Shown: positions 49,600-52,137 of the stretch, in pieces
Layout of the letters: every line of letters starts with the position of its first letter
How positions within the stretch are numbered: the stretch's first letter is position 1
Assembly (NCBI GenBank): GCA_029262235.1
Contig: JAJCZU010000006.1
Location: 136,934-200,933, forward strand
DNA length: 64,000 bases
Source: Candidatus Eiseniibacteriota bacterium
Lineage (GTDB): Bacteria; Orphanbacterota; Orphanbacteria; Orphanbacterales; Orphanbacteraceae
Reading direction: 5' to 3'
Notes under the pieces: generated by a model
The model's database searches: none
Told to the model about the DNA's origin: nothing
Seen by the model: only the letters and a program-made list of their open reading frames with translations
Program-made: the position numbers and the translations under genes

Positions 49600-50301
49600 A
49601 TCTCTTGGTATGACCTGCATACGGCTTCGGATGCCTACGCCGGGCGTTTCACCGGCGCTGTCGGCGCGTGGATGCTCGACCGCCAGTTCGAGCTCGTGCT
49701 TGCGGCGCTTCGTGAGATCGGCGCCGCGACCGTTCTGGAAGTCGGCGGCGGACACGCCCAGCTCGCTCCCCGGCTTGCGGCCGAAGGATTCCGCGTGACG
49801 GTTGCCGCCAGCGGGGAAGAAGCCCTGGGGCGTCTCGAGGGCGCACCGGTTACGACCGTAGTGGCGCCCCTCGGCGATCTCCCGTTCGAAACCGGGGCGT
49901 TCGACGCGGTCATCTGCGTGCGTTTGCTCTGTCATACGGAGGAGTGGCGTGATCTGCTGGGCGAGCTTGCGCGGGTCGCACGATGCGGGCTCATCGTCGA
50001 CTACCCTATTCGCTCGGGATGGCAGCGGGCGGCGCCGCTCCTCTTTTCCTGGAAGCGGCACATCGAGAAGTCCACGCATTCGTGGACGGCATTCACGCAC
50101 GCGGAAATCGAGGAAGCGTGCGGGCATGCGGGGTTCGTGATGAAAAGCCGGGTGGGGCAGTTCGCCCTTCCCATGGTGCTTCACCGCGTGCTGAAAAATG
50201 TGAAGTGGTCTGTTCGTATGGAGAGCGCATGGCGACGCTGGAGTCATGCGCGCGGACAGGCAGGCCCCGTTATCGCTCTCGCGGTTCCGCGGAATCCGTG
50301 A
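49600..50301 (+). CDS. Class-I SAM-dependent methyltransferase (start uncertain)
   Basis: About 233 aa. Methyltransferase_11-like: TVLEVGGGHAQLAPRLA (motif I), then LGDLPFETGAFDAVICVRLL (motif IV region) and an LGELARVARCGLIVDYP segment. The N-terminus should begin close to SWYDLHTASDAYAGRF, but no ATG/GTG/TTG precedes it in frame. An excellent GGAGGAGGG Shine-Dalgarno at 49584-49592 points to an ATC at 49600; the first standard codon is the ATG at 49672. A sequencing error or non-canonical start is possible. The 3' end overlaps the convergent selenoprotein-like gene by 32 bp. Confidence 0.7.
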   Translation: MSWYDLHTASDAYAGRFTGAVGAWMLDRQFELVLAALREIGAATVLEVGGGHAQLAPRLAAEGFRVTVAASGEEALGRLEGAPVTTVVAPLGDLPFETGAFDAVICVRLLCHTEEWRDLLGELARVARCGLIVDYPIRSGWQRAAPLLFSWKRHIEKSTHSWTAFTHAEIEEACGHAGFVMKSRVGQFALPMVLHRVLKNVKWSVRMESAWRRWSHARGQAGPVIALAVPRNP

Positions 50302-50824
50302 AGCGCGGCTCGAGCTCTACGCCGAGTCCGTCGGCAATCCGATTCACAAACGCAAAATATGCCGTGATCGCGCAGATGTCGTGAATGCCGCGATCGTCGA
50401 ACCCGTGCTCGCGGAGCGCTTCGACATCGGCCGCGCTCATGGCGCCGGGCGTCCGCGTCAGCTTTGCCGCATAGTCGAGCATCGCCCGGTCACGGGGCGC
50501 GAGAGGGGCCGTTTCGTATTGTGAGAGCGCGGCAATCAGTCCGCCGGGATCGGCGTGCCCTTCCCGTTCGAGATGCGCACGGAGTCCCGCCCCGTGATGG
50601 ACGAGTCAGTACTCACATTCGTTGATGGCGGACACGACAACGGCGATCATTTCGCGCTGAGCGCCCGTCAGCGGGCCGGGCCTTCGCATCAGCGTCACGT
50701 AAAGTTCGTAATGGTCGCGCATGGAGCGGGGATGAACACGGTGAATGGCGAGGATGTTGTCCTCGTCGGCCACGCGGTAGCGGTCGGGGACCTGATCGGG
50801 CGATTCGTACTTGATGTGCGCCAA
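50270..50824 (-). CDS. AhpD-like peroxidase-related selenoprotein (TGA read as selenocysteine)
   Basis: The carboxymuconolactone-decarboxylase/AhpD-like 'peroxidase-related' protein is 184 aa if the TGA at 50608-50606 is read through. Before it: VTLMRRPGPLTGAQREMIAV and INECEY. After it: LVHHGAGLRAHL, then LDYAAKLTRTPGAMSAADV and AYFAFVNRIADGLGVELE. Family members read ...CxYCLVHHGAAL..., so the TGA sits exactly at the second Cys of the CxxCxxxH redox site, giving CEYU. A SECIS-like hairpin follows the TGA. Both halves are in one frame and cover the family end to end, so random nonsense is unlikely. TTG start, 2 nt after the CYTH stop. It probably reduces hydroperoxides. Confidence 0.85.
50578..50605 (-). 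promoter_or_regulatory. Bacterial SECIS-like element after the in-frame TGA
   Basis: On the minus strand, nine nt after the TGA, CACGGGG (50596-50590) pairs with CTCCGTG (50584-50578) in a 7-bp stem (one G-U pair) around the 5-nt loop CGGGA. The loop has G at its second position and begins 16 nt after the TGA, within the known bacterial SECIS geometry for SelB binding. Confidence 0.65.
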
Positions 50825-50826
50825 GG

Positions 50827-51342
50827 TCAGACGACCCGGGCTGCCAGCAGTTCGAGATAGGAGACGCTCTCGATCGAGGCAGGTTCGATCTGGAAGAGGT
50901 CGGTCAGCCAGTAAATCTTGCCCGCCGCGTCTTCTTCCGTATTCTTTTCGTTCACGAGTGCTTCGAATTCCAGAAACGTGCCGATCCCGTCGACTTCGTC
51001 CATATGAATGCGGACGTCTTTCCAGAGGAACAGCTCGCGGGTCTTGCGCACTTCGCCTTCAAACCCGAGCGTGGAGGAGAGGAGAGATCGCAGGATCTCC
51101 CCTTCCTCCAGCCTCAGAATTTCATAGTCGCTCGGCCGGGCCGAGGCGTCGTTCGATCGATGATAGGCGATGAGCTCCCAGGCGTCGGGAAGCTTACGTA
51201 GTTTGAGGCGTCCTTCGGGCGTCGGAAAGAACGTGTCCCACTGGTCGAAGCGGGAGATTCGCTCGGCCCCCAGCCTGTGCGCGATTTCGCGCGCGGCGTC
51301 GAGATTCTCGACGCGGGCTTTGAGCTCGATGTTCCGACTCAC
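50827..51342 (-). CDS. CYTH-domain protein (class IV adenylyl cyclase / ThTPase-like)
   Basis: The 171-aa protein opens with SRNIELKARVENLDAAREIA, containing the ExExK-type signature of the CYTH triphosphate-tunnel family. FDQWDTFFPTPEGRLKLRKL and later acidic/basic strands (TRELFLWKDVRIHMDEVDG, FLEFEALV) match CyaB-like members. These enzymes act on triphosphates such as ATP, thiamine triphosphate or PPPi; which one here is unknown. It is co-directional with the selenoprotein (2-nt gap) and overlaps the OmpA-like gene by 4 bp. Confidence 0.88.
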   Translation of the reverse strand: MSRNIELKARVENLDAAREIAHRLGAERISRFDQWDTFFPTPEGRLKLRKLPDAWELIAYHRSNDASARPSDYEILRLEEGEILRSLLSSTLGFEGEVRKTRELFLWKDVRIHMDEVDGIGTFLEFEALVNEKNTEEDAAGKIYWLTDLFQIEPASIESVSYLELLAARVV

Positions 51343-52013
51343 GAAAGCGGCTTTTGCATGTCCGACTGCGGCGCCTGATCCGGGGCCGGTGCGCTGTTCA
51401 TGCTCGGACCGATCACGATGACCACGCGGCGGTTCGCGGCGCGCCCTTCGTTCGTTTCGTTCGCGGCGACAGGACGGTACTCTCCATATCCCACGGCAGC
51501 CATACGCGACGGCGGAACCTCCATCTTGTCCTTCAGATAGTGGAGAGCCGAATGGGCGCGCGCACTGCTGAGTTCCCAGTTGGAGTTGTATTTCGAGCGG
51601 AACTGCGCCGCGATCTTGACGTCATCGGTGTGGCCCTCGACCAGCACTTCGCGGTCAGGGTAGAGATCGATGACTTCGCCGATCCGGGTCAGAATATCGC
51701 GCCCCACGTCCGTGAGATTCGTGCTCCCCGAGCGGAAAAGCGCGGCGTCCGAGACAGTCACGATCGACCTCTCGGCGATTCTGTCGAGCAGAACCTGCTC
51801 CTTGCCCGCATAATCGGCCAGGGCCATTTCGAGCTGATTGTTGAGCCGCTCGGCGCGAATCCGTTCCTGCTCGAGCTCACCCTCGAGACCGGTGAGCTGC
51901 GCCTGCAGCGCCGTGATCTCCATTTGCTGATGCGCAATCAATTCCTTGTTATTGGAGCATCCAAATGCTCCGATAGCCAGGACGCCGATCAGCGCCATCT
52001 TCCCGTAATTCAT
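51339..52013 (-). CDS. OmpA/MotB-family peptidoglycan-binding lipoprotein
   Basis: 224 aa. Lipoprotein signal MALIGVLAIGAFGCSNN with lipobox Cys, a coiled-coil stretch (about residues 30-80, QMEITALQAQLTGLEGELEQ) and an OmpA-like domain with VLVEGHTDDVKIA, NWELSSARAHSALHYL and GYGEYRPVAANETNEGRAAN, including the Asp and Arg that bind diaminopimelate. It probably tethers the outer membrane to the wall. The ATG at 52013 follows GGAGG by 8 nt; an in-frame GTG in the Shine-Dalgarno region is rejected as start. Confidence 0.9.
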   Translation of the reverse strand: MNYGKMALIGVLAIGAFGCSNNKELIAHQQMEITALQAQLTGLEGELEQERIRAERLNNQLEMALADYAGKEQVLLDRIAERSIVTVSDAALFRSGSTNLTDVGRDILTRIGEVIDLYPDREVLVEGHTDDVKIAAQFRSKYNSNWELSSARAHSALHYLKDKMEVPPSRMAAVGYGEYRPVAANETNEGRAANRRVVIVIGPSMNSAPAPDQAPQSDMQKPLS

Positions 52014-52137
52014 GACTTTCACCTCCAGAGGTACATCCCTCGTCGTCCTCGCACAGCCTTCGAAAGATAAGCATGACGAGAAGAGCGGTGGTCAGTCAAG
52101 GTCATTCTCCTTATACTCTCTCAAAAGGAGGGGTCCC

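Follow-up and report, generated by a model that had tools for sequence, protein, structure and literature searches.

Is the in-frame TGA at positions 50608-50606 of this stretch a stop codon, or does it encode selenocysteine (Sec)? The window analysed here, 64,000 nucleotides from a Candidatus Eiseniibacteriota bacterium, carries on its minus strand (50824-50270) one frame of 184 residues whose sole interruption is this TGA. Translation with TGA read as U confirmed the single frame that the first-pass annotation had described and gave AINECEY-U-LVHHGAGLRAHL around the site, which we refer to as U73 (50606..50608, minus strand). The gene (50270..50824) ends with TAA at 50272-50270 and likely starts with TTG at 50824-50822, and many homologues have ATG, GTG or TTG at the corresponding place, 72 codons ahead of the TGA. 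When the window was scanned for TGA codons with Cys-like context and open flanks, 54 mechanical hits were obtained, of which only the U73 site had recognisable family context by eye.

We found that the read-through protein belongs to the AhpD/CMD peroxidase-related proteins, as had been claimed from the letters alone. It scored 125.4 bits against the NCBIfam family TIGR01926 ("peroxidase-related"; curated cut-off 81.8), and its score for Pfam CMD (PF02627; cut-off 23) was 44.6 bits. The active site reads C70-E-Y-U73-L-V-H-H77, with the TGA exactly at the second active-site Cys. The earlier proposal that this TGA stands in for the second redox Cys is also supported. Homologues without TGA have a Cys codon (TGC or TGT) at the aligned position and the best-matching solved structure, 2pfx, has Cys there as well, its YCLVAHGA aligning with Y-U-LVHHGA of the window protein. 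In an alignment of 33 sequences, E58, C70, Y72, C/U73 and H77 were invariant. These residues match in spacing the five-residue proton relay of the AhpD-like protein PA0269, which consists of Glu36, Cys48, Tyr50, Cys51 and His55 (PMC3141380). The Glu58 codon (50651..50653, minus strand) corresponds to the proton-relay residue Glu118 of M. tuberculosis AhpD and Glu36 of PA0269, and the His77 codon, a CAC at 50594..50596 on the same strand, to His137 and His55, respectively. Within the C-x-x-U redox pair, Cys70 (50615..50617, minus strand) is predicted to be the resolving residue. Furthermore, the AlphaFold model of the protein had a pLDDT of 95.9, and its top PDB match by Foldseek was 2prr (TM-score 0.83, E 7e-12), with 2pfx, 3c1l, 6k40 and 2oyo in the same group. 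The fold, as modelled, is all-helical and of the AhpD type, matching solved peroxidase-related proteins.

We then compared the TGA codon across homologues in public genomes, taking one genome per species and keeping the best 80 of 138 relatives. The search pattern over the active site had been written with Cys and was biased against TGA forms. All 80 of these best homologues had TGA at the aligned codon. The AhpD-like gene was also present in two of six other genomes of the host family, with TGA in both. The TGA is therefore neither a chance occurrence nor a base error. Over 108 loci, the aligned codon was TGA in 95, TGC in 10 and TGT in 3; TGG, TAA and TAG were found in none of them, so that the variation between Trp and stop codons for which relatives had to be checked did not appear. 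Of the 107 sequences in a maximum-likelihood tree, 86 with Sec grouped together to the exclusion of every Cys sequence (support 95/71), and 84 of them, including the window gene, formed an inner group with support of 97/99. Because the tree sample comprised the best 80 hits and relatives, the absence of Cys members is bounded by that sample. Over the whole tree, exchange between Sec and Cys needs at least four changes. The Sec clade spans about 11 phyla: Gemmatimonadota, Acidobacteriota, Chloroflexota, Planctomycetota, Fidelibacterota, Calditrichota, Actinomycetota, Synergistota, Zixiibacteriota, Eiseniibacteriota and KSB1. The multi-phylum clade that holds the window gene is thus apparently Sec-only, as judged from the sampled sequences. 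Plasmid records yielded only matches below 60% identity, with about 37-39% among the ten listed. One Candidatus Neomarinimicrobiota locus (L052) has an in-frame TAG 66 codons past the TGA in an otherwise conserved protein, which is intact in its close relative L053; this TAG may reflect a sequencing error or decay.

A Sec codon implies Sec machinery in the host, as the first-pass annotation had pointed out, and a genome search recovered selA, selB, selD and tRNA-Sec. The same 4.47 Mb assembly encodes SelA (538 bits), SelB (370 bits, an intact 641-aa ORF) and a tRNA-Sec with anticodon TCA (70.7 bits). Two SelD proteins were detected. The single-domain SelD (349 bits; L018:1501-2424, G000:C3:455857-456780) itself has a TGA in frame where the active-site Sec usually lies, RTCG-U-AAK, and is a probable selenoprotein. 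The second one is a Cys-type fusion of 833 aa to an NADH-dehydrogenase-like domain (Ndh-SelD, 276 bits), encoded on the minus strand at L019:1348-3849 (around G000:C3:267519-268475). With a TGA in SelD in addition to that of the AhpD-like gene, the selenoproteins of the host genome therefore probably number two or more. In the relatives compared, every one of the 12 genomes with TGA forms had selA together with a strong tRNA-Sec (at least 68 bits), and selA was present in 7 of 12 genomes with Cys forms only. A search of a congener (G001; 82% complete, 830 contigs) found no selA, strong tRNA-Sec or AhpD-like gene, which may reflect loss of the Sec trait or an assembly gap.

Just downstream of the TGA we identified a predicted bacterial SECIS hairpin, CACGGGG-CGGGA-CUCCGUG (50578..50596, minus strand), whose stem and loop are composed of the H-G-A-G-L-R codons, the His77 codon lying on the 5' side of the stem. 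The published bSECIS model asks for an apical loop of 3-9 nt with a G at position 1 or 2, a stem of 4-16 bp, a distance of 16-37 nt from the UGA and an energy of at most -7.5 kcal/mol (PMC13188914). The hairpin fits this model with a 7-bp stem, the loop CGGGA with G at position 2, 16 nt from the TGA to the apical loop and an energy in the window gene of -9.0 to -9.5 kcal/mol. A scan of the region against Rfam returned no credible family. The minimum-energy fold of the isolated 54-nt RNA after the TGA is a different, non-conserved hairpin that starts at the UGA. When the first 9 nt were masked, mimicking bases held open in the ribosome channel, the family hairpin dominated, with probabilities of 0.95-0.97 for two upper-stem pairs and 0.52 for an outer pair. 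In some of the homologues (L055 and L066) the family hairpin is not the favoured fold.

Conservation and codon bias, assessed over 95 Sec and 13 Cys loci, bear on whether this hairpin is real. In 64 homologues with the HHGxGLR motif, the second His codon was CAC in 64 of 64 (background in the same genes 0.71), the first Gly codon GGA or GGG in 62 (0.41), the Leu codon CTC in 62 (0.36) and the Arg codon CGT in 55 (0.12). Among synonymous codons, those that keep the stem paired are strongly favoured. By synonymous resampling, the hairpins of Sec loci had a mean energy of -7.0 kcal/mol against an expected -3.9, whereas the 13 Cys loci showed no such effect (-2.35 against -2.21 kcal/mol). At one place in the stem the G-C pair has become A-U, along with a Gly-to-Glu replacement, in L066, L068 and L096, and the same pair becomes C-G in the HAEFLR group (L030, L033 and L049); these double changes are compensatory. 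A slid-column control reached at most 48% pairing compared with 87.5% for the hairpin. However, double-change counts were not lower in the control, and covariation alone is therefore moderate evidence, codon choice being the stronger test. The codon-level evidence for the reality of the family SECIS hairpin is strong. An Anaerolineae/Chloroflexota Sec subgroup whose motif is HHARNLR instead of HHGAGLR (L103, L105, L107, L111, L114, L122, L124, L126, L129 and L130) is without the family stem and must therefore use a different hairpin.

Taken together with the frame, these observations bear on two readings in which the TGA is not Sec. One takes it for a genuine stop or for a nonsense mutation, leaving a pseudogene or two separate ORFs. 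TGA does serve as an ordinary stop in this genome, where the upstream CYTH and OmpA genes end in it. The codons past the TGA are nevertheless conserved at roughly 50-64% identity over about 11 phyla in which the TGA is fixed, and the downstream synonymous sites are under strong constraint. A decaying gene, moreover, would be expected to collect further stops or frameshifts, and a TGA shared by independent assemblies would not be expected. We regard this reading as very improbable. Reassignment of TGA to Trp or another amino acid (code 4 or 25) would by itself produce a read-through frame that looks alike, and we found no support for it. It has to contend with genes in the genome that end properly in TGA, with homologues that, where TGA is missing, always have Cys (TGC or TGT) and never Trp, and with a full set of Sec machinery, and it appears to us less probable still. 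Codon 73 is very probably selenocysteine. With high confidence we conclude that the gene encodes an AhpD/CMD selenoprotein (TIGR01926, COG2128) that is made by ordinary bacterial Sec decoding and is predicted to act as an AhpD-type peroxidase or thiol-disulfide reductase.

The TTG start lies two bases downstream of the stop of a CYTH-domain gene (CyaB/thiamine-triphosphatase-like; 50827..51342, minus strand; PF01928, 56.9 bits), and this is overlapped in turn by an OmpA-domain gene (51339..52022, minus strand; PF00691), assigned by profile and synteny. The CYTH gene is also directly upstream in the family relatives G002/L060 and G005; the AhpD-like homologue of G002 is identical to that of the Candidatus Eisenbacteria MAG L060, an identity that by itself would most likely place the window in that phylum. 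The order OmpA-CYTH-AhpD-like is conserved in the host family, where the CYTH gene is the operon partner. A comparison of gene neighbours across lineages revealed no shared partner of the AhpD-like gene. Neighbours in other groups were named from the first residues of their translations: the Sec gene stands beside tryptophan-biosynthesis-like genes in L054, L071, L073, L077 and other Gemmatimonadota loci, and beside histidine-degradation-like (hut-like) genes in L110 and other Gemmatimonadales loci.

We infer the following course of Sec insertion and catalysis. The UGA would be decoded by a tRNA-Sec that SelB delivers, with the hairpin that begins about 9 nt past the UGA as guide. Sec73 corresponds to Cys133 of M. 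tuberculosis AhpD, and its selenolate would attack a peroxide with the assistance of the Glu58/Tyr72/His77 proton relay. Cys70 would then resolve the selenenic acid to a selenenyl-sulfide, and a cellular thiol or thioredoxin-like partner would reduce this bond as the putative electron donor. An alternative is that the selenoprotein has the same fold and is not a hydroperoxidase, being instead an adaptor in thiol-disulfide exchange, an enzyme resembling reductive dehalogenases or a sestrin-like protein. The debrominase Bmp8 and Sestrin2 match the structure, though more weakly, which is consistent with this. AhpD proteins also serve AhpC as adaptors, and the peroxidase activity of PA0269 is only weak (PMC3141380). 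The neighbours, which vary by lineage (trp-like or hut-like in Gemmatimonadota groups, CYTH-OmpA in the host family), indicate no single substrate. All five residues of the AhpD relay are however present with exact spacing, and the protein is most closely related to the peroxidase-related group. We judge a role outside hydroperoxide reduction unlikely, if far less so than either non-Sec reading of the codon, and prefer the AhpD-type peroxidase or thiol-disulfide reductase described above.

The findings extend a catalogued selenoprotein family of putative function to a poorly known phylum. The new elements are the host lineage, Candidatus Eiseniibacteriota, the apparently Sec-only multi-phylum clade and the family-wide SECIS hairpin. 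As a tentative proposal, which we hold at a little short of evenly balanced, Sec may be fixed in this clade, with no Cys in its 86 sequences, which come from about 11 phyla, and in most members the SECIS hairpin may be written into the HHGAGLR codons in such a way that the catalytic motif and the RNA signal are under mutual constraint. With the hairpin and the clade together, the question of why some enzymes retain selenocysteine could be put to a concrete test. Automatic annotation pipelines would cut genes of this sort short at the TGA.

Several known systems can be set beside the window protein. The Cys-type structures 2pfx, 2prr, 3c1l, 2oyo and 6k40 share its fold (TM-score 0.77-0.86) and active-site positions, but have Cys for Sec and typically HGA where the Sec clade has HHGAG. 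PA0269 and M. tuberculosis AhpD share the five-residue relay in the same spacing, E-x11-C-x-[YH]-C-x3-H; they too have Cys for Sec, and in M. tuberculosis AhpD the motif is in another region of the chain. NF041238 (AhpD_rel_CFYUT) and NF041047, a distant AhpD homologue, are likewise AhpD-related with CxxU. Both are different subfamilies: the window protein scored 56.3 bits against the NF041238 cut-off of 175, and NF041047 was not among its profile matches.

The closest comparison is with the published AhpD-like CxxU family, and here the first-pass annotation, which had taken the arrangement of Cys first and Sec second for a new-looking selenoprotein subfamily, has to be revised. An "AhpD-like protein" with CXXU, 27 genes and a predicted SECIS goes back to the first report, in 2005, on the Sargasso Sea set (PMC1088965). 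By 2006, two AhpD-like (COG2128) selenoproteins were known in sequenced genomes (PMC1794560), and in 2008 "AhpD-like 1" ranked fourth in abundance among the selenoprotein families of GOS, with 299 genes (PMC2398784). Reviews of 2022 and 2026 list the family as "COG2128 (YciW), CxxU" (PMC9312934) and "AhpD-like protein, TIGR01926, CxxU" (PMC13188914), respectively. None of the papers searched mentioned both "Eisenbacteria" and selenocysteine. The window gene is a well-supported new member of this known selenoprotein family and not a new kind. With the published family, whose representative is MCB9421940.1, it has in common the NCBIfam assignment, the C-x-x-U motif with Sec at the second Cys, and a predicted SECIS just downstream, whereas it differs in its Candidatus Eiseniibacteriota host and its CYTH-OmpA context.
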